Below, piece by piece: positions 3,969-33,577 of a DNA stretch of 33,577 nt (position 1 is the stretch's first letter; every line of letters begins with the position of its first letter). The translations under genes and the position numbers were made by a program. The notes beneath the pieces are model-generated. The model made no database searches. It was not told the origin of the DNA and saw only the letters and a list, made by a program, of their open reading frames with translations. The stretch is from Sphingomonadaceae bacterium (GTDB lineage Bacteria; Pseudomonadota; Alphaproteobacteria; Sphingomonadales; Sphingomonadaceae), in contig JAHDBR010000023.1 in NCBI GenBank assembly GCA_020630295.1, positions 1 to 33,577 of the forward strand, read 5' to 3'.

Positions 3969-4010
3969 TCGATGATCGCTTTGGAACGACTTGAACCGGT
4001 TATGGGAATT

Positions 4011-5672
4011 ATGATGATAAAACGCCTTTGCTCTGCGCTTGCCTGTGCGGCCGCTTTTACTGCGACCCCCGTTCTTGCTGACCAGATTGTCGACAATATT
4101 CAGGGTATCCGCATCGCCGATGACGGGTCGGCGCAACGTTTCACCGCTTTGTGGATCGATGATGATGGCCGGATAAAACAGGTCATTGAACAGGGTGATG
4201 ATATGCCCCGCGCGGATTACCGCGTGGATGGCAAAGGCCGGTATGTCATCCCCGGTCTGATCGATTCGCATCTACACGTCATGGGCATCGGATTTGGCGC
4301 GCTGACCCTTGATCTCTCCGGTACGAATTCGTTGGCTGAGGCGCAGCAACTGATTGCGCAATATGCTGCCGAGAATCCCGGTGCGCGGTGGATCATCGGA
4401 CGCGGCTGGAATCAGGAGAAATGGGGGCTTGGGCGGTTTCCAACTGCTGCTGAACTTGACGCTGCGGTTTCCGATCGTCCCGTTTGGCTGGAACGCGTGG
4501 ACGGCCATGCTGGCTGGGCCAACACCGCTGCAATGAAACTGGCGGGTGTGACGGCTGCTTCCAAATCACCCAGCGGAGGGCGTGTCGAGCGTCTGCCGGG
4601 CTCACGTACCCCGTCAGGCATTTTTGTCGATAATGCCGCCGCGCTGGTGCAATCTTCCGTTCCCGCTCCGCGTCCGGAGGACCGTGATCTGGCGCTCTCC
4701 AAGGCGCAGGATATTCTGTTATCCTTTGGCATCACCGCTGCGGCGGATATGGGTACGACGATAGAGGATTGGCAGTCTTTCCGGCGCGCAGGTGATGGCG
4801 GATGGCTGAAGGTCCGTATCATGTCCTATGCAGCAGGTGTCGAGGCAATGGAACTGATCGGCGGCCCCCGCCCCGGTCCATGGCTATATGATGATAAATT
4901 GCGCCTCAACGGTGTGAAGCTGTATCTGGATGGTGCGCTGGGATCGCGCGGTGCTTGGCTGAAACGTCCCTATTCAGACGATGCGGGCAATACGGGCCTG
5001 CCGCTGCAAACCTCGGCCCAATTGCGCAATTTGATGAGCCGCGCAGCGCTGGATAAGTTTCAGCTCGCGATTCATGCAATTGGCGATGCGGCGAACAGTG
5101 AAGTCCTGAGCGCTATCGACGAGCTTACCGCGACTTACGAAGGAGACCGACGCTGGCGGATTGAGCACGCGCAAGTCGTAGACCCGGCTGAAATTGCGAA
5201 ATTTGGCGAGAACGGGACGATCGCTTCGATGCAGCCCGTTCACCAGACATCGGACAGGACCATGGCGGAGGCACGGCTCGATCCGGCGCGTCTAACCGGT
5301 GCCTATGCATGGCAAACCATTTTCAACACCGGCGCACCGCTGGCGTTCGGGTCCGATGCGCCGGTGGAGTCGCCAGACCCGTTCGCCGGCCTGGCGGCAG
5401 CCATTTCGCGCACCGGTCCGGATGGAGAGCCATTTGGCGGTTGGCGAATCGAAGAACGGGTCAGCCGCGCGCAAGCCCTTGCCGGCTTCACTTCCGCTGG
5501 TGCCTTTGCCGGTTTCGCCGACGGTCGCTTCGGGAAACTTGCCGCAGGCGAGCGTGCTGACTTCGTATTCATTGATCAGGACTTGCTCCTCGCTTCGCCC
5601 GAATCTATTCGCAATACCCGTGTCTTGGAGACATGGGTTGGAGGTCAGAAAGTTTTCTCAGCTACCAATTAG
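4011..5672 (+). CDS. Exported YtcJ-type amidohydrolase (amidohydrolase family 3)
   Basis: This 553-residue metal-dependent hydrolase has an apparent N-terminal signal peptide (MMIKRLCSALACAAAFTATP, then VLA), placing it in the periplasm. The metal ligands H87 and H89 sit in IDSHLHVMG. GVKLYLDGALGSRGAW carries the lysine typical of the family. AIHAIGDAA and IEHAQ supply further His ligands, and FGSDAPVESPDPF supplies the catalytic Asp. Relatives include N-substituted formamide deformylase and many uncharacterised exported hydrolases, so the substrate is unknown. Frames open further upstream (3972, 4002), but starting at 4011 places the signal peptide correctly. It probably shares a transcript with the dehydrogenase gene before it. 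No hairpin terminator was seen directly after it. Confidence 0.87.
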   Translation: MMIKRLCSALACAAAFTATPVLADQIVDNIQGIRIADDGSAQRFTALWIDDDGRIKQVIEQGDDMPRADYRVDGKGRYVIPGLIDSHLHVMGIGFGALTLDLSGTNSLAEAQQLIAQYAAENPGARWIIGRGWNQEKWGLGRFPTAAELDAAVSDRPVWLERVDGHAGWANTAAMKLAGVTAASKSPSGGRVERLPGSRTPSGIFVDNAAALVQSSVPAPRPEDRDLALSKAQDILLSFGITAAADMGTTIEDWQSFRRAGDGGWLKVRIMSYAAGVEAMELIGGPRPGPWLYDDKLRLNGVKLYLDGALGSRGAWLKRPYSDDAGNTGLPLQTSAQLRNLMSRAALDKFQLAIHAIGDAANSEVLSAIDELTATYEGDRRWRIEHAQVVDPAEIAKFGENGTIASMQPVHQTSDRTMAEARLDPARLTGAYAWQTIFNTGAPLAFGSDAPVESPDPFAGLAAAISRTGPDGEPFGGWRIEERVSRAQALAGFTSAGAFAGFADGRFGKLAAGERADFVFIDQDLLLASPESIRNTRVLETWVGGQKVFSATN

Positions 5673-5869: not shown

Positions 5870-5887
5870 TGTTACATTTCGGTAACA
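5870..5887. promoter_or_regulatory. Inverted repeat TGTTAC-N6-GTAACA
   Basis: Two perfect 6-nt arms (5870-5875 and 5882-5887) flank a 6-nt spacer, an 18-nt dyad of the size bound by a dimeric repressor or activator. It lies between the candidate promoter and the small peptide gene. No regulator can be assigned from sequence alone. Confidence 0.35.
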
Positions 5888-5919: not shown

Positions 5920-5945
5920 CCTCTATGGTCTGACTACCGTAGAGG
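5920..5945 (+). promoter_or_regulatory. 5' leader hairpin, 10-bp stem with one G-U pair
   Basis: CCTCTATGGT (5920-5929) pairs with ACCGTAGAGG (5936-5945) around the loop CTGACT. There is one wobble pair and no mismatch. It is not followed by a T-run, so it is not an ordinary terminator. It sits about 44 nt before the start codon, and the 3' arm contains the Shine-Dalgarno-like TAGAGGAG. It may be a translation or RNA-stability control element; a protein-binding dyad is the alternative. Confidence 0.4.
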
Positions 5946-5988
5946 AGCCCCTGAGATTAATTATAGAGAGCTCTAAGGAGACGATTTG

Positions 5989-6222
5989 ATGAAGTTCCGT
6001 AACCTGCTTGCTGCAACTGCAGCTGTTTCGCTGGCAGCATCGCCAGCACTGGCGCAAAGCGCTGACGCTGACCGTGCTACTGCACCTGTAACTGGTGAGA
6101 GCGCACTGGGTGATGACGCAGGTGGTGCTGGCATCATCCTTGCGATCCTCGCAGCTGCTGCGATTATTGCTGGCATCGTGATTGCCGGTGGTAACGAAGA
6201 CGATACACCAACTAGCCCGTAA
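5989..6222 (+). CDS. Small exported single-span membrane peptide, unknown function
   Basis: This 77-residue protein starts with a convincing signal peptide (residues 1-22, ending ALA before Gln-Ser). A short polar Asp-rich stretch follows, then one hydrophobic segment rich in Ala, Ile and Gly (about 46-68: GIILAILAAAAIIAGIVIAGG), and an acidic tail, NEDDTPTSP. The Gly/Ala-rich helix would favour tight helix packing. I recall similar short proteins with acidic tails ending near Ser-Pro in sphingomonads, without known function. The ATG at 5989 is chosen over the adjacent TTG because TAAGGAG lies 8 nt upstream. It is a single gene with its own apparent promoter and terminator, suggesting high or regulated expression. 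Confidence 0.85.
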   Translation: MKFRNLLAATAAVSLAASPALAQSADADRATAPVTGESALGDDAGGAGIILAILAAAAIIAGIVIAGGNEDDTPTSP

Positions 6223-6246
6223 CAACGGTCTAAGTTGAACAATTAG

Positions 6247-6274
6247 ACGGGGCCATTTTTGGCCCCGTTTTTTT
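6247..6274 (+). terminator. Rho-independent terminator of the small peptide gene
   Basis: A perfect 8-bp stem, ACGGGGCC / GGCCCCGT (6247-6254, 6261-6268), with the loop ATTTTT is followed by a run of seven T ending at 6274. It lies 24 nt after the stop codon. Confidence 0.92.
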
Positions 6275-6442
6275 GTGCCGGTTTTCAGCGCAATCGGACG
6301 CTGGCGACATGGTTTGCGAAATAATTGGTACCGGGGACGCTGATCTACATGGTCCCGGCATCGTCGCACCCAAGAGTGTCTATCTGATAGGTTTGGATTT
6401 ATAACTGATTGCCGGGGACATGATCCGTGGCGAGACACACCG
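6275..6442. other. Convergent intergenic spacer before tatC
   Basis: No gene was seen. CCGGGGAC at about 6332 and GTCCCGG at about 6352 can form a bulged hairpin, and CCGGGGAC recurs near 6413. None has a clear T-run on the minus strand, so a tatC terminator cannot be named with confidence. Confidence 0.3.
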
Positions 6443-7240
6443 TTACGTATCGGTGCTTTCTTTGTCGCCATCACCGTCGGTCTTTGCCTTCTTGCGTTCC
6501 GTAAACCGCATAATCAGCAGCGATCCTTCAAACAAGAAAACTAGCGGTACCGCCAATATGAGCTGGGATCCCGGATCTGGCGGCGTCACAATCGCAGCAA
6601 CCGCAACAACCAGAACAATTACGTAGCGGCGCGCACCAGCCAGTTGCTGACGGCTGACTATGCCCGCACCGTTCAATAAAAGCAGCAGAACAGGCAGCAG
6701 AAAACTGATCCCGAATGCCAGAATGAATTGCATTACCAGTGACAGATACTCACCCGCTGCGGGCAAGGCTTCGAGCGGCACGCCGCCAGTTACGCCTTCA
6801 AATCCGATAAACCACCGAAAGGCTGTCGGCATCACTACGTAATAGGCGAGCGCAGCGCCGAGAGTGAAAAGAAGCGGTGTCGCGATCAGAAATGGCAAAA
6901 ATGCCTTCTTCTCTCGTGCGTAAAGGCCCGGCGCAACGAACGCCCACAACTGGTTGGCGATAAACGGGAAAGTTAAGCAAAACCCGGCAAACAAGGCCAC
7001 TTTCAGTTCAACGAAGAACGCCTCATACAGCTTGGTATAAATCAGCCTCCCTTCCCCGGGAGGAAATGCGGCCTCAAGCGGTCGTACCAAAAATCCGTAA
7101 ACCTCATCGGCAAAATAGAGACCGATCACGAACCCGATAGCCAGTGCGATCACGCACCGCACGAGTCGCCCGCGTAGCTCAACCAGATGATCGAGCAGCG
7201 GAGCTTGCGATTCGTCGATGTCTTTGATCCCCAGTGCCAT
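6443..7240 (-). CDS. tatC: Twin-arginine translocase subunit TatC
   Basis: TatC is the polytopic receptor of the Tat system in the inner membrane; with TatB it binds twin-arginine signal peptides of folded proteins. The 265-residue sequence shows six hydrophobic segments. It also shows the N-terminal HLVELRGRL motif (18-26), the first-loop signature FVAPGLYAREKK (101-112) and a glutamate in GEYLSLVM (164). The basic and acidic C-terminal tail is cytoplasmic. It starts 2 nt after the tatB stop, in the order tatA-tatB-tatC downstream of scpB. Length and motifs are normal for the family. Confidence 0.97.
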   Translation of the reverse strand: MALGIKDIDESQAPLLDHLVELRGRLVRCVIALAIGFVIGLYFADEVYGFLVRPLEAAFPPGEGRLIYTKLYEAFFVELKVALFAGFCLTFPFIANQLWAFVAPGLYAREKKAFLPFLIATPLLFTLGAALAYYVVMPTAFRWFIGFEGVTGGVPLEALPAAGEYLSLVMQFILAFGISFLLPVLLLLLNGAGIVSRQQLAGARRYVIVLVVAVAAIVTPPDPGSQLILAVPLVFLFEGSLLIMRFTERKKAKTDGDGDKESTDT

Positions 7241-20562: not shown

Positions 20563-20641
20563 GGCGGCCATGACACAGAACCACCAATTCAACGATCCTA
20601 GCAACGCAATTGCTGCCAGTATCCAACCGAGAGGCAAGACC

Positions 20642-22255
20642 ATGAAACGTCGCCTAACTGCAACATTGCTGATGGCCAGTCTGGCTACAGCCCCCTTTGC
20701 CGGGATTACATCGGGAACTGCAAATGCGCAGTCGGTGATGAAACCCTCGACAGATATCGTATTGTCGATTGGCCGAGGTGAACTGGTCACTGTGCCCGGT
20801 GCGATGGCGGATGTGTTCATCTCCAACGATGCCGTTGCGGATGTGCAGATCAAGTCGCAGCGTCAACTTTACCTGTTCGGCAAAGCTGGCGGCGAAACGA
20901 CAGTCTATGCCAGCAACGCCCGCGGCGATATTGTTTGGTCGGCTAACGTCCGCGTTGGTTCAAACATTGACAGCATCGACCAGATGCTGGGCCTTGCCAT
21001 GCCGGAAGCAAACGTGACCGTTTCCACCATGGGCACGAACACTGTTCTTCTGACAGGCACCGTTGCCGCACCGGAAGATGCGTCCGAAGCAGAGCGTCTG
21101 GTTCAAGCATTTGTCGGTGAAGAAGCCAACGTCATCAGCCGCCTGAAAATGGCCACACCTTTGCAAGTCAACTTGCAAGTCCGGTTTGCTGAAGTCAGCC
21201 GCTCTCTGGTGCGCACGATTGGTAACAATCTGACCACGATCGACGGTTCTAACGGCATCCAGTTCGGTGTCGGGACCGGCCGCTCCGGCTTCTCCAACGT
21301 GTTTCGTCCTAACAGCGCAACAGGTGTTGGAAACCAGGTAACTGTCACCATTCCTGACGTGAATAACCCGGGTCAGTTTATCGAAGTGCCAGGTACTTCG
21401 ATCAATCAGATCACTGGCGGTTCAACGCTTGGGTTTGCCGGCAGCTTGCTCGGCCTCGACTTGCTCAGCGCGCTTGATCTGGCCGAACAAAACGGCCTTG
21501 TCACCACTTTGTCCCAGCCGAACCTGACTGCACTGTCGGGCGAGACTGCAGACTTCCTGGCTGGCGGCGAGTTTCCGATCCCGATTAGTCAGGGTCTGGG
21601 CACGACTGCGATTGAATATCGTAAATTCGGTGTCAGCCTTGCCTATACACCTACGGTTCTTGCCAATGGCCGGATTTCGATCCGCGTCCGTCCGGAAGTT
21701 TCCGAGCTATCGAGCCAGGGTGCGGTGACGTTGAACGGCTTCCAAATTCCGGCGCTTACCATTCGCCGTGCTGAAACAACTGTGGAACTCGGCTCCGGCC
21801 AGAGCTTCATGATCGCCGGTTTGATGAGCAATAATGCCCAGCAGACTATCGATAAGGCACCTGGTGTCGGTGATGTTCCGATCTTGGGCAATCTGTTCCG
21901 GTCGCGCTCCTTCCGTAAGGGCGAAACCGAGCTGGTTATCGTGGTTACGCCGTATCTGGTGAACCCGGTCAACGCGAAAGATATTGTGTTGCCTACAGAC
22001 GGCTTCCGCGCCGCAAATGAAGCGCAAAGTCTGCTCGGCTTCCGTGAAAATAACGGAGAGACCGGCGGCGAACGCTACAAACCGACTGCCCGCAACAAGA
22101 ACGCACCTCCACCAGAGGTATCGCGGATCGACCCTGCAGCAATCGCGCCAAGCGGTAACCCTGTATCCGGCCGTAGCGCCGATAATTCCAACAAGAAGCG
22201 CAAGAGTGCGAAATCCGCTGACGCGGCAGCCGCTCCTGGCTTCAGCCTGAAGTGA
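20642..22255 (+). CDS. cpaC: Tad-type secretin CpaC/RcpA
   Basis: CpaC forms the outer-membrane channel through which the Flp pilus leaves the cell. The signal peptide (MKRRLTATLLMASLATAPF to ANA-QS) argues for the ATG at 20642; an ATG at 20570, just after cpaB, would add 24 residues. The N-terminal BON-like/secretin N0 region (ILSIGRGELVTVPGAMADVFISNDAVADVQI) and the N1 part (about 75-170) are followed by LQVNLQVRFAEVSRSL. The secretin core runs to DVPILGNLFRSRSFRKGETELVIVVTPYLV. The C-terminal tail is Lys/Ala/Ser-rich. It overlaps the cpaD reading frame by a few nt. Confidence 0.94.
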   Translation: MKRRLTATLLMASLATAPFAGITSGTANAQSVMKPSTDIVLSIGRGELVTVPGAMADVFISNDAVADVQIKSQRQLYLFGKAGGETTVYASNARGDIVWSANVRVGSNIDSIDQMLGLAMPEANVTVSTMGTNTVLLTGTVAAPEDASEAERLVQAFVGEEANVISRLKMATPLQVNLQVRFAEVSRSLVRTIGNNLTTIDGSNGIQFGVGTGRSGFSNVFRPNSATGVGNQVTVTIPDVNNPGQFIEVPGTSINQITGGSTLGFAGSLLGLDLLSALDLAEQNGLVTTLSQPNLTALSGETADFLAGGEFPIPISQGLGTTAIEYRKFGVSLAYTPTVLANGRISIRVRPEVSELSSQGAVTLNGFQIPALTIRRAETTVELGSGQSFMIAGLMSNNAQQTIDKAPGVGDVPILGNLFRSRSFRKGETELVIVVTPYLVNPVNAKDIVLPTDGFRAANEAQSLLGFRENNGETGGERYKPTARNKNAPPPEVSRIDPAAIAPSGNPVSGRSADNSNKKRKSAKSADAAAAPGFSLK

Positions 22256-22266
22256 GAAAGGTGAAC

Positions 22267-22914
22267 ATGATGCCTATTGCAATCAATCGCAAACTAGCAG
22301 GTGCTCTGGCCCTCTCGCTTGGGCTTACCCTGGGTGCTTGTGGCGGAATGCCCAGCAACACCAGCTTGGAAAGCACTAAGCAACCGGTAGTTGAGCGTAC
22401 GAATTACACATTCGATGTCAGCTCCGGCAGAGGCGGCCTTTCCATTCCGGAACAGCAGCGTCTGGCTGCATGGTTCGATGCTATGGATCTGCGTTACGGT
22501 GACCGCGTTGCTATCGATGACCCAATGGTCAGCGGTGCAACCCGCGAAGCCATCGGTAAGCTGGCTTCGCGCCACGGTATCCTTCTAAGCGAAGGCGCAC
22601 CTGTGACTGCCGGTTATGTCAATCCGGGCAGCACCCGCGTTGTATTGACCCGGTCTACCGCATCCGTACCTGGCTGCCCCGATTGGACCGAAACGTCGGA
22701 TATGAATTACACCAACGGTACACGTCCAAACTATGGCTGCTCCATCAATGGCAACCTTGCCGCGATGGTCGCCAATCCGGAAGACCTGATCAATGGTCAG
22801 GCTGGCACCGGTCAGACAGTCGTATCGACGGGTAGCAAAGCTATCGACAGTTACCGCAATCAAGCACCAACAGGTGAAGGCGGTCTGAAACAGTCCGCAA
22901 CCGGAGGAGAGTAA
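22267..22914 (+). CDS. cpaD: CpaD family pilus assembly lipoprotein
   Basis: This 215-residue protein has a lipoprotein signal peptide ending in LTLGAC, so it should sit in the outer membrane beside the secretin. The CpaD core is visible: LAAWFDAMDLRYGDRVAI, SRHGILLSEGAPVTAG, and the block GCPDWTETSDMNYTNGTRPNYGC with two Cys. NLAAMVANPEDLINGQ ends it. The ATG at 22267 is preferred to a GTG at 22252 because AGAAAGG precedes it and the signal peptide is then of usual length. CpaD is thought to aid CpaC assembly or localisation. The stop is 3 nt from cpaE. Confidence 0.92.
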   Translation: MMPIAINRKLAGALALSLGLTLGACGGMPSNTSLESTKQPVVERTNYTFDVSSGRGGLSIPEQQRLAAWFDAMDLRYGDRVAIDDPMVSGATREAIGKLASRHGILLSEGAPVTAGYVNPGSTRVVLTRSTASVPGCPDWTETSDMNYTNGTRPNYGCSINGNLAAMVANPEDLINGQAGTGQTVVSTGSKAIDSYRNQAPTGEGGLKQSATGGE

Positions 22915-22917
22915 GCC

Positions 22918-24198
22918 GTGAACGCACCTTGGAAACCCAATGGTTCAGGCAACCGCGATCCGTTCGCCGCATTCATTTGCGACGAAGCCGCTCTGGATGT
23001 TCTGCGCCCCGTCGTAATCGAACTTGGCTGGCAGCCTGAAAAATGCGCCAAGGGCGGTCTGCGCAATGCAGTCCAGTCTTTGTCGGTTGCCGCCAGCCCC
23101 AACATTCTGTTGGTTGATCTGTCCGAAAGCGGCGATCCGCTGAACGATATCAACGCGCTGGCCGAGGTTTGCGAACCGGGCACAGTGGTGATTGCAGTCG
23201 GTCAAGTGAACGATGTCCGCCTCTACCGTGATCTGCTCTCCAGCGGTATCCACGATTATCTGCTGAAGCCGCTATCTGCCGGTCAGCTGCGCGATTCACT
23301 CAATGCTGCGCAAGCGGTATTCTCTGCGCCGCGCACTAGCGATCCTGATGCTGTAAAGCGTCACGTTTCAACGGCAATCGTCGGCACACGTGGCGGCGTT
23401 GGTGCATCTATGCTGGCAACCTCGCTCGCATGGTTGTTCAGCGACGAGCACAATCTGCCGACTGCGCTTCTTGATCTTGATGTCCACTTCGGAACCGGCG
23501 CACTCGCGCTTGATCTGGAGCCTGGCCGCGGTCTGACTGACGCAATCGACAACCCCAGCCGCATTGACGGCCTGTTTATTGAACGCGCGATGATCCGTGC
23601 GAACGATAATCTGGCTATCCTGTCGGCAGAGGCACCTATCAATGCGCCGTTGATGACCGATGGTTCGGCCTTCATCCAGTTGGAAGAAGAGTTCCGTCAA
23701 GCGTTTGAAATGACGATGATTGATCTGCCGCGCAACATGCTCATTAATTTCCCGCACTTGCTGGGTGATGTGAATGTTGTGGTGCTGGGTACGGAAATGA
23801 CGCTTGCTTCGGCGCGCGACACTATCCGTATTCTCAGCTGGCTGAAGACTAACGCTCCGCACGCAACTCCGTTGATTGTAGCCAATAAGGTCCAAAGCGG
23901 CGCAGCAGAGATCAGCAAGGCCGATTTCGAGGCATCGATTGAACGCAAGATCGATTTCACAATTCCGTTTGACCAGAAAGCGGCTGCGAATGCGGCCAAG
24001 CTGGGCCAAACCTTTGTGGAAGCAAACCGGTCGAGCAAAGCCACTGCAGTGGTCAAGCAATTGGCCGACCGTATCCTTGGCGCGAGCGAAGAAGGCGTTG
24101 AAGGCGAAGAGCCAGCGAAGAAATCGCTGCTCGGAAGCTTCGATCTGAAATCGCTACTCGCGAAAAAAGAAAAGAAACAGCCAGCGGAAGCTGAGTGA
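22918..24198 (+). CDS. cpaE: Pilus assembly protein CpaE/TadZ (atypical receiver plus ParA/MinD-like ATPase)
   Basis: CpaE/TadZ positions the Tad machinery, typically at a pole. Residues 15-130 form a receiver-like domain (FICDEAALDVL; LLVDLSES with D67; GIHDYLLKPLS with K117). The ParA/MinD-like domain starts at about 148. Its Walker A is GTRGGVGAS (156-164), lacking the usual Lys residues, as is common in CpaE/TadZ. It continues with LLDLDVHFGTGALALDL. The last 40 residues are Glu/Lys-rich. Start is GTG at 22918, 3 nt after cpaD. In other Tad loci the next gene is the CpaF ATPase; here a 79-nt gap and tadB follow. Confidence 0.93.
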   Translation: MNAPWKPNGSGNRDPFAAFICDEAALDVLRPVVIELGWQPEKCAKGGLRNAVQSLSVAASPNILLVDLSESGDPLNDINALAEVCEPGTVVIAVGQVNDVRLYRDLLSSGIHDYLLKPLSAGQLRDSLNAAQAVFSAPRTSDPDAVKRHVSTAIVGTRGGVGASMLATSLAWLFSDEHNLPTALLDLDVHFGTGALALDLEPGRGLTDAIDNPSRIDGLFIERAMIRANDNLAILSAEAPINAPLMTDGSAFIQLEEEFRQAFEMTMIDLPRNMLINFPHLLGDVNVVVLGTEMTLASARDTIRILSWLKTNAPHATPLIVANKVQSGAAEISKADFEASIERKIDFTIPFDQKAAANAAKLGQTFVEANRSSKATAVVKQLADRILGASEEGVEGEEPAKKSLLGSFDLKSLLAKKEKKQPAEAE

Positions 24199-24206
24199 TC
24201 TTTCAC

Positions 24207-24234
24207 GCGGCCGCGCCCGAAACGGTGCGGCCGC
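24207..24234 (+). repeat. GC-rich hairpin with two GCGGCCGC arms between cpaE and tadB
   Basis: GCGGCCGC at 24207-24214 recurs at 24227-24234; the 8-mer is its own reverse complement. With the inner GCC/GGT (one G-U) the stem reaches 11 bp around the loop CGAAAC. No T-run follows, so it is not a standard terminator. It lies in the only gap of the Tad operon where cpaF would be expected and may set differential expression of upstream and downstream genes. Confidence 0.6.
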
Positions 24235-24277
24235 TTAACCCACTATTGCGAAGAAATAGGAAAGGCAGGTTGATAGC

Positions 24278-25249
24278 ATGAGCATTCTACAGCTCCTGCT
24301 GGTAGGCGCCGGGATTATGTCCCTGTTGGTGGTCGGCTATATGCTGGTTGCCGGGCCCTCTGCCGCCAAGGAAAGTCAACGCCGCTTGCAGGCCTTGCGG
24401 TTCCGCCATTCGGAAAGCACCGACACCAAAGTGGAGTCGCAGCTGAAGAAGGCCATTGCATCACGCAAACCGAAAGTTCAGCACGCGGCCGGCTCTACAT
24501 CCCGGATTGATGCGCTGGCCATCCGGCTTGACCGGACTGGTAAGAATTGGTCCCTGTCGCAGTATTTTTATGCCTCGCTCGGCCTTGCTCTAGCGGTTGC
24601 CGTGCTGATGTACTTGCGCAGCGGTGCAGCGCTTCTGTCACTCGGCATAGGCGTCTTCATCGGTGCAGGCTTGCCGCATCTGGTGGTCAACTTCTTCATC
24701 AAACGGCGTACAGCGAACTTCAATGCGAAGTTCCCGGACGCGATTGAATTGCTGGTGCGGGGCCTGCGTTCGGGCCTGCCGGTTACTGAAACACTCGCAG
24801 TTGTTGCTCAGGAGCTTCCAGGCCCTGTGGGCGAGGAGTTCAAAGGCATCACCGAGCGGATCAAGATCGGTAAAACGATGGAAGAATCGCTGCAGAATAC
24901 TGCAGACCGTCTCGGCATCCCGGAATTCAACTTCTTCTGCATCACGCTGGCGATCCAGCGCGAAACTGGCGGTAACTTGGCAGAAACACTGTCCAACTTG
25001 TCGGACGTGCTTCGCAAGCGTTCGCAAATGAAGCTGAAGATTAAGGCGATGAGTTCGGAATCCAAAGCGTCGGCTTACATCGTTGGCGCCCTGCCCTTTA
25101 TCGTGTTCGGCATGATCTACTGGATCAACCCCGGATATATTGGCGGATTCTTTGAAGACGAGCGTTTGATCGTCACCGGCCTTGGCGGGCTTGTGTGGAT
25201 GTCGATCGGCGGTTTCATCATGGCCAAAATGGTCAGCTTCGAAATTTAA
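24278..25249 (+). CDS. tadB: Tad platform protein TadB (type II secretion system F family)
   Basis: TadB is one of two inner-membrane platform proteins on which the pilus is built. This 323-residue sequence starts with a membrane helix (about 3-25), followed by a charged cytoplasmic region. A membrane pair lies at about 97-135, and the T2SSF domain at about 150-280 includes FPDAIELLVRGLRSGLPVTETLAVVAQE and FCITLAIQRETGGNLAETLSNLSDVLRKR. Two further C-terminal helices end it. Length and order fit TadB rather than PilC, with a single F domain. It follows the hairpin gap after cpaE and is 15 nt ahead of tadC. Its normal partner ATPase CpaF is not encoded here. Confidence 0.92.
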   Translation: MSILQLLLVGAGIMSLLVVGYMLVAGPSAAKESQRRLQALRFRHSESTDTKVESQLKKAIASRKPKVQHAAGSTSRIDALAIRLDRTGKNWSLSQYFYASLGLALAVAVLMYLRSGAALLSLGIGVFIGAGLPHLVVNFFIKRRTANFNAKFPDAIELLVRGLRSGLPVTETLAVVAQELPGPVGEEFKGITERIKIGKTMEESLQNTADRLGIPEFNFFCITLAIQRETGGNLAETLSNLSDVLRKRSQMKLKIKAMSSESKASAYIVGALPFIVFGMIYWINPGYIGGFFEDERLIVTGLGGLVWMSIGGFIMAKMVSFEI

Positions 25250-25264
25250 GGAGGAGGGATACAG

Positions 25265-26272
25265 ATGTTAAATCAAGGTTCCGGACCAACCCTTCTCGGT
25301 GTTGATGTTATACTGGTCGGCACAATTCTGGTTGCCGTCGCAGCATTCGCGGTCATCGTGGCAATCTATGCCGCTGTGACGGTGAAAGATCCCATGGCCA
25401 AGCGCGTGAAAGCGCTCAATTCGCGCCGTGACGAGCTGAAGGCAGGTATTGTGACCGGTACGGCGAAGAAACGCGCCAGCCTGGTTCGCAAAACCGATCA
25501 AACCGAAAAGATGAAAGACACGCTTTCCGGGATGAAAGTCCTTCAGGAAAGCCAAGTCGCGGTTATCCAGCAAAAGCTGGCCCATGCGGGTTACCGTAAC
25601 AAAGAACTCGCGGTTCTGGTGATCGCAGCACGCCTTGTCATGCCAATCATTCTGGGCGGCCTCGGCTTCCTGATGATTTACGTGATCGACTATTTCCCTG
25701 AATGGGGTGATTTCAAACGCCTCGGCGCGTTCGCCGCTCTGCTTTTCGCAGGCTATAAGGGACCGGAAACGATCCTGAAGAACAAGGCCACGAAGCGTAC
25801 GACCGAAATTCGTAAAGGTTTGCCTGACGCGCTCGACTTGCTGGTGATTTGTGCCGAAGCCGGCCTGACCGTAGACGCCGCCTTTAACCGGGTGGCCAAG
25901 GAACTTGGCCGTGCGTACCCTGAACTGGGCGACGAATTTGCGCTAACCGCAATTGAACTCTCGTTCCTGACCGAACGGAAGCAGGCGTTTAACAACCTTG
26001 CTTACCGCGTCGATCTGGAATCGGTGCGCGGAGTGGTGACCACAATGGTCCAGACCGAACGCTACGGTACACCGCTGGCATCGGCCCTTCGCGTCCTGTC
26101 AGCCGAATTCCGGAACGAGCGGATGATGCGCGCTGAAGAAAAAGCGGCACGTCTGCCGGCGATTATGACGATCCCGCTGATCATGTTCATTCTGCCAGTG
26201 TTGTTCATCGTTATTCTGGGCCCTGCGGCCTGTTCGATCAGCGATGCATTCGCAGCGAAACCCGGACGTTAG
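25265..26272 (+). CDS. tadC: Tad platform protein TadC (type II secretion system F family)
   Basis: TadC is the second inner-membrane platform protein. The 335-residue protein has an N-terminal helix (about 14-37), a basic cytoplasmic stretch and a membrane pair at about 118-170. The T2SSF domain has GLPDALDLLVICAEAGLTVDAAFNRVAKELG and ELSFLTERKQAFNNLAYRVD. A C-terminal helix, IPLIMFILPVLFIVILGPA, ends it. ALDLLVICAEAGLT is a block I associate with TadC rather than TadB. GGAGG at 25251-25257 precedes the ATG. A long hairpin terminator follows at once, so the Tad operon ends here without TadD, TadE, TadF or TadG genes. Confidence 0.93.
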   Translation: MLNQGSGPTLLGVDVILVGTILVAVAAFAVIVAIYAAVTVKDPMAKRVKALNSRRDELKAGIVTGTAKKRASLVRKTDQTEKMKDTLSGMKVLQESQVAVIQQKLAHAGYRNKELAVLVIAARLVMPIILGGLGFLMIYVIDYFPEWGDFKRLGAFAALLFAGYKGPETILKNKATKRTTEIRKGLPDALDLLVICAEAGLTVDAAFNRVAKELGRAYPELGDEFALTAIELSFLTERKQAFNNLAYRVDLESVRGVVTTMVQTERYGTPLASALRVLSAEFRNERMMRAEEKAARLPAIMTIPLIMFILPVLFIVILGPAACSISDAFAAKPGR

Positions 26273-29978: not shown

Positions 29979-30722
29979 ATGGTCAAAAAGCTGTTCGAGA
30001 TTAATCCGGCCCTAGACAGGGCGGCACTGGCTGAAGAGTTTGCGGCCAACAGGCGTGTTCAGGTCCGCAATGTTCTGACCGATGAAACTGCGCGCGAAGT
30101 TCGCGGCATCCTGGCCGGACACACGCCTTGGGGTATTGCAATGCAGGCCGGCATCGCAGACCCGCCCGGCCCGCAGCAAATACACGCACCCGAACTGCGC
30201 ACCGATGCCGGTAAGCAAAAGGCACAACAACTGGCACAGGCCGCCTATGGAGCCGTTGCGCAAGGTGATTACGCATTCCAGTTCGGACAATATTCGCTGG
30301 TTCAGGGCTTTCAGGAAAAATGGGACGAAGGCGGTCCGCACGATCTCCTGCTGGAACATCTGAATGCACCGGATTACCTGCAATTGGTGCGCGATGTGAC
30401 CGGCATACAGGAACTCGTCAAAGCGGACGGTCAGGCAACCGTTTTCGCGCAGCAGCAATTCCTTGGTCATCACATTGATAGCCACGTCGCCGAAGGCTGG
30501 CGCGTTGCCTATGTGCTGAATATGACAATTGATGACTGGAAGCCCGACTGGGGCGGCTATCTGCAATTCTTTGATGATGATGGAGACGTGGTTCAGGGAT
30601 ACCGGCCGCGCTTCAATTCACTGAACCTGTTTTTGGTGCCCTGCCCGCACGCAGTCTCATTTGTGCCGCCATTTGCACCTGTCGGTCGTTTTGCGATCAC
30701 CGGCTGGCTCCGCGACAGGTGA
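29979..30722 (+). CDS. 2OG-Fe(II) oxygenase, Tpa1/Ofd1- or prolyl-4-hydroxylase-like
   Basis: This 247-residue protein has the 2-oxoglutarate dioxygenase facial triad. H165-I-D167 lies in GHHIDSHVAEGWRVAYVLNMT, H224 in LVPCPHAVSFV, and the 2OG-binding R237 in GRFAITGWL. The spacing and the block DWGGYLQFF resemble the COG3751 proline-hydroxylase group, whose eukaryotic member Tpa1/Ofd1 hydroxylates ribosomal protein Rps23. No signal peptide was seen, so it is probably cytosolic. The ATG at 29979 is chosen over an open frame to 29907, which shows no protein-like sequence. Its stop overlaps the GTG of the next gene (GTGA), so the TPR protein is translationally coupled. The substrate is unknown. 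Confidence 0.86.
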   Translation: MVKKLFEINPALDRAALAEEFAANRRVQVRNVLTDETAREVRGILAGHTPWGIAMQAGIADPPGPQQIHAPELRTDAGKQKAQQLAQAAYGAVAQGDYAFQFGQYSLVQGFQEKWDEGGPHDLLLEHLNAPDYLQLVRDVTGIQELVKADGQATVFAQQQFLGHHIDSHVAEGWRVAYVLNMTIDDWKPDWGGYLQFFDDDGDVVQGYRPRFNSLNLFLVPCPHAVSFVPPFAPVGRFAITGWLRDR

Positions 30723-32410
30723 GCAAAACCGCGCCTCAACAATGGCACGCGAAGGCAACATCGGCGCTGCAAAGCGGCGGTGCAGAGGCGGTGATGCCGG
30801 TTGCGCAACAAGCGCTGAAAGACCATCCCGCTGACACGGCCCTGATCAACAGTTTCGGAAATCTGTTCATGCAAGCCGGGGAGCCAGCGCAGGCGGCCGA
30901 ATATTTCGCCAAGGCAGCACAGCTTGAACCGCAGACCATCGATTTCGCCCTCAATCACGCGATCGCTCTGACTGCGCAAGGCCATAACGAGGACGCGATT
31001 GCAGTCATGGTTCCGCTGGAAAATCAAGGCCGGAGCTCCGCTCTCTTTTGCTCCGCACGCGGGAATGCGGAACGCGGGGCGGGAAATCTGGACGCGGCGG
31101 CTGTGTGGTATGACCGGGCTATTGCGTTGGAGCCGCGCCGGGCCAAAGCCCTGCATGGCCGCGCACGTATCGCAATCGAGCGGGGCGAAGCGGATGCGAG
31201 GCAGAGATTTGACGCTGCTTTGGCCGTAAATCAGGGCGATCCGGACCTGTGGCTCGGCCGCGCCCAGACACTGGAAGTAGAAGGCGACATTGCGGGTGCG
31301 CGCCAGATCGCGCAATCGCTGGTCGATCAGGCGCCGCAATGGCTGGAGGGCTCACGCTATCTCGCCGCCTTGCGGTTGGCCCAGGGAGAGGCGGACCCGA
31401 CCTCCCATTATGGTTCTGCCATTGCCAAGCTGCCACAAGATCCAAACATTCCCTATGCATGGTGCGGCGTGTTGGGCAGTCTGGACGATAACGCAAAAGC
31501 CGCCGACATTGCCGCAGAGGCGCGCAAAGCCCATCCGGATACGCAGCAGTTCGCTTTGTTAGAGGCCCTCCATTCCGGCGCAGCGGGCGACGATGACCGG
31601 GCCGAGGCGATCTTCAAAAAGCTCACGATCCAGAATGCAGAGCGCTGGCTGCATGAAGCACGGCACCGTATCCGGCTGCGCGACTGCACGCAGGCCGTAT
31701 CGCTTTTGGAGCAGGTTCTTGAGGCCGATCCGGACAGCATCTCCGCATGGGCGCTATTGGGTGTAGCATGGCGATTGATGGACAGTCCGAACGCCGATTG
31801 GCTTTACAGACAAGGTGGATGCTCTGCTTTGCTCCCTCTTCCCGAAGCCGATGCGGTCTTGCCGAAGGTGATGCCGATTTTGCACGAATTGCATGACGGC
31901 TCCCCGCTTCCGCTAGGGCAATCATTGCGCGGCGGCACGCAGACGCGCGGCATATTGTTTAACCGGCTGGAGCCTGAACTGCGCGAGTTGCAACGGTCTA
32001 TTCTGGACGCGGTCGAGCAATACCGCGCCGGCCTTCCTCCGGCTGATGACCGGCACCCCCTGTTGCGCCACCGAGATGCACCTTGGCGAATGGAAGGGTC
32101 CTGGTCTGTCAGGCTGGCGGCTGGCGGGGATTATCATGCCGCGCATATTCATCCTCAGGGATTGGTTTCCTCAGCGCTGTATCTAGAGCTACCGCCGGAA
32201 GACGCGAGCGATCCGAAAGCAGGCTGGCTGGAACTTGGCCGCCCCGCCAGCGATTTGCGCACCGGTTTGGAGCCCCTTGAAACTATCGAACCACGCATAG
32301 GCCATCTCGCGCTGTTCCCTAGCATCCTGTATCACGGTACGCGGCCGTTCTCCGGCGCGCAAAGGATGACCGTGGCATTCGATATTTCGCTTAGAAAAGG
32401 CACTGCATAA
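30719..32410 (+). CDS. TPR protein with C-terminal putative 2OG-Fe(II) oxygenase domain
   Basis: The N-terminal 380 residues of this 563-residue protein are alpha-helical tetratricopeptide-like repeats (for example ALINSFGNLFMQAGEPAQAAEYFAKAAQLEP and AAVWYDRAIALEPRRAKALHGRARIAIERGEA). They suggest protein-protein binding. The C-terminal 110 residues match the 2OG-FeII_Oxy_5 (PF13759) pattern. H476-I-H478 lies in YHAAHIHPQGLVSSALYLELPPED, H539 in LFPSILYHGTRPF and R549 in QRMTVAFDIS. The family carries HxH rather than the usual HxD. The GTG start overlaps the stop of the upstream dioxygenase, and its TAA overlaps the methyltransferase ATG by one base, so it is the middle of a tightly coupled operon. 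The client protein or peptide is not known. Confidence 0.85.
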   Translation: MSKTAPQQWHAKATSALQSGGAEAVMPVAQQALKDHPADTALINSFGNLFMQAGEPAQAAEYFAKAAQLEPQTIDFALNHAIALTAQGHNEDAIAVMVPLENQGRSSALFCSARGNAERGAGNLDAAAVWYDRAIALEPRRAKALHGRARIAIERGEADARQRFDAALAVNQGDPDLWLGRAQTLEVEGDIAGARQIAQSLVDQAPQWLEGSRYLAALRLAQGEADPTSHYGSAIAKLPQDPNIPYAWCGVLGSLDDNAKAADIAAEARKAHPDTQQFALLEALHSGAAGDDDRAEAIFKKLTIQNAERWLHEARHRIRLRDCTQAVSLLEQVLEADPDSISAWALLGVAWRLMDSPNADWLYRQGGCSALLPLPEADAVLPKVMPILHELHDGSPLPLGQSLRGGTQTRGILFNRLEPELRELQRSILDAVEQYRAGLPPADDRHPLLRHRDAPWRMEGSWSVRLAAGGDYHAAHIHPQGLVSSALYLELPPEDASDPKAGWLELGRPASDLRTGLEPLETIEPRIGHLALFPSILYHGTRPFSGAQRMTVAFDISLRKGTA

Positions 32411-33321
32411 TGACTTCTTCCCACGATGCCGCATGGACCGATTTTTGGGCTCAAAACCAGAATGCCGGTCAGGGCGGCGGATGCTTGCCTGCCAAGTGGC
32501 AGAGCATCGAAACTGCGCAGCGCGCCATGTGGGATGCTTTTGCGAAGGGTCTTCCGAAAGGCGCATCGGTGATTGACGTTGCCACCGGAGACGGGCGCGT
32601 GATGGGATGGCTGCTGGCCAAGCGCCGCGATTTGAAGCTTATCGGCGTCGACATGGCCCCGCAATTGCCCGAACCGCCCAAGGGCACCAAAATTCGCGGC
32701 GGCGTGTCTATGGAGGCACTGCCATTTCCGGATGGCAAGTTTGCATCGGCCACCAGCCAGTTCGGCTTTGAATATGGCGATTTGGAAAAAGCTGCGGCAG
32801 AGCTGGCGCGCGTGGTGAAGTCGGGCGGCAAGATCGGCATTATGACGCACCGGATCGACGGCCCTATTCTGGCGCACAACCTTAAGCGCCGCGCCCAGAT
32901 TGCATGGGCGATAGACGAGCACGAACTTATCGAAACCGGTAAGCGCAGCCTGTCACTGCGCGCCAGCGGGCTTCAAACAATGTCACCGAAACTCAATGAA
33001 GCACCTGCGGCTGGCGCGCGGATCTTCGGGCAAGGATCAGCGGCATGGGAAATTGCCGAGGCGGTTCGGCAGAGCCTAGTGATGGGCCGGCGGGATGATC
33101 CCCGCAATGTCGCAAAACTGCTGGATACGATCGCCGACAAGGCACGCAACGAAATGGGGCGTATATCTTCGCTCGAAGCGGCGTGTCAGCAGACTTCGGA
33201 CGAAGACAAGTTTGCGGCGGCTTTGCAAGCAGGCGGCCTACGACAACATTCGGTCGAGCCAGTATGCGAGGACGGCAATACCGGGCCCTTTGCCGATTTC
33301 AGAGTCCTGAGAGCCATCTAA
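32410..33321 (+). CDS. SAM-dependent methyltransferase (class I, type 11-like)
   Basis: This 303-residue protein has a Rossmann SAM-binding motif I, VIDVATGDGRV (54-64). Motif II contains LIGVDMAP, the post-motif block is MEALPFPDGKFASATSQFGFEY, and ELARVVKSGGKIGIMTHR is motif IV/V-like. The layout matches class I methyltransferases of the UbiE/type-11 kind, but the second half (140-303) is helical and not family-diagnostic, so the substrate could be a small molecule or a protein. The ATG overlaps the stop of the TPR-oxygenase gene (TAATG). It is the last gene of the operon; a GCCCC-ATTT-GGGGC stem at 33380-33393 lies 58 nt downstream but lacks a T-run. Confidence 0.8.
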   Translation: MTSSHDAAWTDFWAQNQNAGQGGGCLPAKWQSIETAQRAMWDAFAKGLPKGASVIDVATGDGRVMGWLLAKRRDLKLIGVDMAPQLPEPPKGTKIRGGVSMEALPFPDGKFASATSQFGFEYGDLEKAAAELARVVKSGGKIGIMTHRIDGPILAHNLKRRAQIAWAIDEHELIETGKRSLSLRASGLQTMSPKLNEAPAAGARIFGQGSAAWEIAEAVRQSLVMGRRDDPRNVAKLLDTIADKARNEMGRISSLEAACQQTSDEDKFAAALQAGGLRQHSVEPVCEDGNTGPFADFRVLRAI

Positions 33322-33577
33322 CCCGTCGCATTAGTCCGACTGCTGCTACGCAGTTCAAACGCTCCATTCCGCTAAGTTCGCCCCATTTGGGGCCAAAGCA
33401 CGCGCACCGCGAGATACGCCGCTGCCTGCCAATAGCGATAATGCGTCCGCCTAATGCGCATCGGCATTCAGCACGCCAGCTACGACATTTGCAGCAGGCA
33501 AAGAAAAAGGGCGGCGGACCAAGTCCACCGCCCCAATTCTGTGTTTTCGCTTTCGCGGCTTTAAGTTCTTAGAACTT
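33322..33577. other. Intergenic region at the right edge
   Basis: No gene was recognised. It holds the weak stem at 33380-33393, a minus-strand terminator (33501-33533) and the dyad AAGTTC-TTA-GAACTT at the very end (33563-33577). A minus-strand reading frame ending Lys-Phe-stop at 33569-33571 could be the tail of a gene lying outside the window, but two residues are not enough to call it. Confidence 0.4.
33501..33533 (-). terminator. Minus-strand Rho-independent terminator
   Basis: The minus strand reads an 11-bp stem GGGCGGTGGAC / GTCCGCCGCCC (one G-U, loop TTG; plus-strand 33509-33533) followed by TTTTTCTT. On the plus strand the same arms have a mismatch and no T-run, so it ends a transcript coming from the right of the window. 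Confidence 0.82.

Follow-up and report, generated by a model that had tools for sequence, protein, structure and literature searches.

Two 2OG oxygenases and a methyltransferase encoded beside a TonB-dependent receptor gene in sphingomonads

The window analysed here is a stretch of 33,577 nucleotides from a Sphingomonadaceae bacterium (assembly GCA_020630295.1, contig JAHDBR010000023.1), and near its right-hand end lie three overlapping genes. They code for two different 2-oxoglutarate (2OG) and Fe(II)-dependent oxygenases, here termed OxyA and OxyB, and for a methyltransferase (MT). The comparison with related genomes revealed that this trio is linked to a convergent gene for one type of outer-membrane nutrient receptor, a TonB-dependent receptor (TBDR), and this linkage is well supported. 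We tentatively propose, with slightly less than even confidence, that the trio is a cytosolic modification module dedicated to the receptor, whose polypeptide it would most likely modify prior to export; both the client and the chemistry are what we infer.

An earlier note on this DNA had described a coupled operon of two different 2OG oxygenases, a tetratricopeptide repeat (TPR) scaffold and a methyltransferase. All of these are found where it had placed them, and their domains were confirmed by Pfam (Table 1). However, the note had let the feature end at 33321 and had missed a conserved convergent TBDR gene that starts at the window's very edge. The first junction, AGGTGAGC, has the GTG start of OxyB at 30719 and the TGA stop of OxyA at 30720-30722, an overlap of 4 nt. 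At the second, TAATG, the TAA stop of OxyB (32408-32410) and the ATG start of MT (32410) overlap by 1 nt. Read off these overlapping junctions, the trio would form a co-translated operon. Judged by eye, a signal peptide is evident in none of the three proteins, which are therefore expected to be cytosolic.

Table 1. Features of the trio and of the adjoining receptor gene in the window
Feature	Position	Strand	Basis
OxyA, single-domain 2OG-Fe(II) oxygenase, 247 aa	29979..30722	+	Open reading frame, Pfam, alignment, model
OxyB, TPR superhelix and PF13759 oxygenase, 563 aa, GTG start	30719..32410	+	Open reading frame, Pfam, model
MT, class I S-adenosylmethionine (SAM) methyltransferase, 303 aa	32410..33321	+	Open reading frame, Pfam, motif I
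Intrinsic terminator of the convergent receptor gene, minus-strand GGGGCGGTGGACTTGGTCCGCCGCCCT then TTTTCTTTGC	33508..33534	-	Alignable with the receptor terminator of relatives
End of the TBDR gene, its final two codons with the stop, AAG TTC TAA (K F stop)	33569..33577	-	KF-stop in five relatives

Linkage of the trio to a receptor gene

The conservation of the trio was followed in 80 OxyA loci, obtained in one scan of genome contigs with the OxyA alignment and coming mostly from Erythrobacteraceae, with some genera of the Sphingomonadaceae type. OxyB lies directly downstream in 73 of the 80; of the seven exceptions, four reach the end of their contig, and three (L201, L213 and L230) have no OxyB directly after OxyA. 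MT follows in 56 of the 73 OxyA-OxyB pairs and is missing, for example, in Porphyrobacter and Croceicoccus loci. MT is thus an optional member of the trio. The junctions in relatives are mostly overlaps of 4-19 nt, or near-overlapping. The arrangement is not due to chance, and the adjacency that the earlier note had expected to find elsewhere is borne out. Among genomes of the window's genus, G003 is without OxyA and OxyB, and G002 without OxyA.

A convergent TBDR (PF07715 and PF00593) comes next among the mapped families in 70 of 70 scorable OxyA loci, at a distance of less than 300 nt in 65 of them, and the convergent gap between MT and TBDR mostly measures 83-277 nt. The left flanks vary by lineage (thiolase/SDR/ECH, ClpB, or neither), whereas the core of OxyA, OxyB, optional MT and TBDR is constant. 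The linked receptor is large (~1000 aa). In the tree, the adjacent TBDRs belong mainly to a single branch, from which most of the second TBDRs at these loci are separate. Since 13 trio-bearing relatives encode 16-29 plug domains per ~3-Mb genome, we estimate chance adjacency to a TBDR at about 1% per neighbour, and the linkage is therefore not explained by TBDR density. Across the order, a TBDR is located within 3 kb of OxyB in 43 of 51 loci, a set that includes trio genomes of the window's family. Several genomes from beyond the order, at the level of class and phylum, show the same pairing of OxyB and TBDR (L240, L242, L245, L246 and L247).

In sister families, further TPR-armed enzymes surround the receptor. 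TPR-sulfotransferases (PF13469) occur with or near OxyB and TBDR at loci L112, L119, L129, L132, L133 and L134, and TPR-Asp/Asn hydroxylases (PF05118) at L119 and L149. Homologues of OxyA and MT join these receptor-side sets in varying combinations. A common TPR arm with exchangeable catalytic heads (PF13759, PF05118 and PF13469) suggests one type of polypeptide client that is subjected to different chemistries.

The receptor gene of the host genome is cut by the end of the window's contig (C2) at 33577, and the rest of the host assembly (G000) yielded no close copy of the receptor known from relatives. In relatives, the receptor and a small secreted protein, termed c2, are encoded between ClpB and MT, and the host ClpB gene lies 13 bases from the edge of another contig (C61), its 3' end facing that edge. 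Going by this synteny and the short homologous stretch at the window's edge, the missing stretch between C61 and C2 most probably holds the genes for the host receptor and c2. Loss of the receptor from the host genome was considered and rejected, as the KF-stop, the terminator and ClpB at the C61 edge favour an assembly gap.

The c2 protein (~180 aa, two cysteines; L095:4912-5478 on the minus strand, and homologues) is encoded divergently from TBDR throughout the order, with C51, R60, C63, D65 and W144 invariant in the alignment of homologues. It is present in 113 of 149 genomes, usually as a single copy, and is duplicated together with TBDR in the Porphyrobacter loci L206, L222 and L225. Pairs of c2 and TBDR also exist where OxyA and OxyB were not found, such as in G003, and c2 was not seen nearby in several trio loci of the Aurantiacibacter group. 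An assignment of c2 as a type VI secretion component was dropped, the similarity to VasI being sub-threshold only.

In most of 67 loci (e.g., G004:C1:268621-268638), a conserved motif, TGTNNCNNNAWTGYCACA, lies ~160-200 nt upstream of the start of the receptor gene. Its Gibbs score was 927 versus 416 for shuffled sequences, and 0-2 copies exist elsewhere in the same genomes. Possible readings are an inverted repeat, a direct repeat of 11 bp or a Pho box, and we claim no regulator for it. The window itself holds a similar sequence, TGTTACCGAAATGTAACA (5870-5887, minus strand), with the inverted repeat TGTTAC-N6-GTAACA, between an amidohydrolase gene (3972-5672) and the 5923-6474 reading frame adjoining tatC, but the count of such patterns is within chance expectation. 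Elsewhere in the window, a secretin and two T2SSF-type proteins are encoded in a row (20570-26272), which looks like a Tad/Flp pilus cluster.

Domains and active-site residues of the three enzymes

OxyA matches PF13661 (E 5e-16) and also PF13640. Its HxD...H triad (H165, D167 and H224) and the 2OG-binding arginine R237 are conserved without exception in 50 relatives, and likewise in 29 of 29 sequences across the order. In the profile search against solved structures, human OGFOD1 (4nhx) scored best, followed by the Pseudomonas EF-Tu hydroxylase PPHD, and the triad and R237 align with the OGFOD1 residues in the profile alignment. The AlphaFold2 model (pLDDT 95) matches the folds of yeast Tpa1 (3mgu, E 2e-10), PPHD (4j25/4iw3), OFD1 and PHD2, and PolD is also among the structural matches. 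The two triads proposed in the earlier note, HxD...H in OxyA and HxH...H in OxyB, are real and invariant in relatives; the iron ligands align with a 2OG pocket, and OxyA is structurally most similar to Tpa1 and PPHD, both of them protein prolyl hydroxylases. For both oxygenases, the ligands were assigned by conservation and alignment. Without a TBDR nearby, homologues of OxyA were also observed in tandem arrays of two or three copies (L128:5084-7236, L135:9548-11073 and L136), those of L135 and L136 near a threonylcarbamoyl-AMP synthase gene, and one genome (G108) carries eight copies.

OxyB consists of many TPRs, forming a superhelix over about residues 1-365, and a PF13759 2OG oxygenase domain at residues 461-555, which was detected with E 1.6e-17 and 64.2 bits against a cut-off of 27 over profile positions 2-101 of 101. 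The ligands H476, H478 and H539, together with R549, are identical in all 55 sequences compared. In the model (pLDDT 94), the oxygenase fold comes after about eleven helical hairpins. With this model, Foldseek retrieved OGT, SPINDLY and, aligned across ~490 columns, human AspH; the TM-scores were low, probably due to differing superhelices. The host genome also encodes two more PF13759 proteins without a TPR arm (G000:C68:62600-62932 and G000:C7:2810-3115; frames of 215 and 229 aa).

MT belongs to the broad SAM methyltransferase families, with 35.9 bits for Methyltransf_11 (cut-off 21.2), a score above cut-off for Methyltransf_25 and a bare match to PF01209 (23.6 versus 20.1), and the NCBIfam search of MT gave no family above cut-off. 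Its motif I, VIDVATGDG (D56 and G60), and the acidic D81 are kept in relatives. Unusual family-specific motifs, SQFGFEY and THRxDGPILxHN (H147 and N157), are invariant. Two assignments of MT were rejected: the ubiquinone-type UbiE/MenG methyltransferases, with 36.7 bits against an NCBIfam cut-off of 158.35, and the LahSB-type methyltransferases of ribosomally synthesized and post-translationally modified peptides, for which E was only 5e-4 and the similarity generic to methyltransferases.

Possible client of the trio

A protein client is the most economical, if unproven, reading of the trio. The TPR superhelix of OxyB would hold an extended polypeptide, most likely the unexported receptor, or else a small secreted partner encoded alongside. 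OxyB and OxyA would both hydroxylate side chains of this client, in the case of OxyA probably proline, and MT might methylate this client as well, perhaps at a newly introduced hydroxyl group or an acidic side chain. Such a modification may tune receptor assembly, stability, or the binding of ligand or metal. It is also possible, if doubtful, that the trio is one version of a modular system, in which TPR-armed enzymes with swappable catalytic domains (PF13759, Asp/Asn hydroxylase or sulfotransferase) decorate a dedicated TBDR before export, together with a prolyl-hydroxylase-like enzyme and a methyltransferase, and lineages differ in the modification.

Several points weigh against a module that modifies the receptor. 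The substrate, the product and any interaction are all putative. The receptor is an exported protein, so that cytosolic enzymes must act on it before Sec translocation, which is unusual. Folds of the PF13661 type also act on small molecules, as the presence of PolD among the structural matches of OxyA illustrates. No TBDR is nearby at eight of the 51 OxyB loci in the order, nor at many remoter PF13759 homologues. Furthermore, no promoter is common to convergent genes, and their arrangement does not imply co-regulation with the receptor. The receptor itself is not assembled in the host genome, and most of the 80 genomes come from one family and are hence not independent.

Alternatively, the enzymes could act on the cargo of the receptor, making or degrading an imported small molecule or peptide such as a metallophore or a natural product. 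Linkage to a TBDR gene is typical of uptake-plus-catabolism and siderophore loci, and 2OG oxygenases, sulfotransferases and methyltransferases commonly work on metabolites, as do the PolD-type nucleoside enzymes in the structural neighbourhood of OxyA. However, the conserved neighbour clusters that we identified, not all of which are annotated, include no nonribosomal peptide synthetase, polyketide synthase, inner-membrane permease or dedicated catabolic gene. A precursor-peptide gene, which would mark a cluster for ribosomally synthesized and post-translationally modified peptides, was not noticed between the trio genes or in the short MT-TBDR gap, where small open reading frames were not searched systematically. 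Moreover, three separate catalytic domains fused to TPRs favour a polypeptide client. We thus regard action on the cargo as rather unlikely, albeit still worth considering.

The client could instead be c2, if this protein partners the receptor as a ligand-binding subunit at the surface or in the periplasm. Its pairing with TBDR throughout the order and their co-duplication in Porphyrobacter speak for such a role, whereas the c2-TBDR pairs found where OxyA and OxyB are not, and the Aurantiacibacter-group trio loci with no c2 nearby, make c2 an improbable client. We give still less weight to the notion that the three genes are co-inherited passengers of a stable housekeeping island without a joint function. 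The whole region (ClpB, thiolase, SDR and ECH) is indeed syntenic in many lineages, but the core stays as the flanks change (e.g., in Aurantiacibacter, Croceicoccus and Sphingosinicella), the junctions overlap in most genomes, and OxyB and TBDR occur together in other families and outside the order. Hydroxylation of a translation factor or ribosomal protein, as by Tpa1/OGFOD1 on uS12 or by PPHD on EF-Tu, with an accidental TBDR linkage, is the least probable: although the closest solved relatives of OxyA in both sequence and fold act on these proteins, uS12 and EF-Tu are universal while the system is dispensable within the genus (G003 and G002), and an accidental linkage would not yield 70 of 70 loci.

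Few clients are known for bacterial prolyl-type and TPR-fused oxygenases, and a fixed receptor partner would narrow the open question of the hydroxylation substrate to one membrane protein. If receptors were indeed hydroxylated, sulfated or methylated before export, this would, for marine and freshwater sphingomonads, constitute an undescribed layer of outer-membrane biogenesis and of the uptake of nutrients or metals. Among the openly accessible papers searched, we found none that links bacterial prolyl-type or TPR-fused oxygenases to TBDRs, which is weak evidence of novelty. The domains and broad families are known, whereas the receptor-linked combination and the swapping of heads on the TPR arm appear to be undescribed in the papers searched.

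Comparison with known oxygenases

The closest known counterparts of OxyA are the uS12 prolyl 3-hydroxylases Tpa1p and OGFOD1, its best matches by fold and by profile against the PDB, which also have in common with it the HxD...H triad and a conserved Trp after the last strand. The residue at position -3 from the first His ligand is Tyr in prolyl 4-hydroxylases and Leu in prolyl 3-hydroxylases (Leu152 in OGFOD1 and Leu156 in Tpa1p), although this residue alone does not set the regioselectivity (PMC4396695). In OxyA, it is Leu162, invariant in 50 of 50 sequences. The identity of OxyA to Tpa1p and OGFOD1 in structural alignments is 16-21%, and OxyA differs from them in being bacterial and receptor-adjoining. 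It is a single domain of 247 aa, in contrast to the tandem domains of the OGFOD1 group with their C-terminal double-stranded beta-helix domain, and has R-x-A in place of R-x-S (RFAITGW, with A at +2). As modelled, OxyA is of the Tpa1/OGFOD1-like prolyl-hydroxylase fold, but lies outside the OGFOD1 subfamily because it has neither a second domain nor the R-x-S motif. PPHD, the Pseudomonas EF-Tu prolyl 4-hydroxylase, resembles OxyA as a bacterial single-domain protein hydroxylase with the same fold and triad. However, it has ~20% identity and another gene context, and where PPHD and PHD2 bear the conserved Tyr of prolyl 4-hydroxylases, OxyA has Leu162.

By score, the catalytic domain of OxyB belongs to the PF13759/TIGR02466 oxygenases, whose solved members (2rg4 and 3bvc) are of unknown function. 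OxyB shares the HxH...H signature and the downstream Arg with these solved members, and HxH...H also with the host genome's own PF13759 paralogue. OxyB differs from the group by its long TPR superhelix, an extra conserved segment before the domain, and the TBDR linkage. The human aspartyl/asparaginyl beta-hydroxylase AspH resembles OxyB in combining TPRs with an oxygenase and in missing the acidic iron ligand. AspH, however, binds iron with two His only (PMC4543633), whereas OxyB has three His ligands. The Pfam search detected no PF05118 match in OxyB, so the likeness is one of fold and not of homology at the PF05118 level, and AspH acts in the endoplasmic reticulum on epidermal growth factor (EGF) domains.

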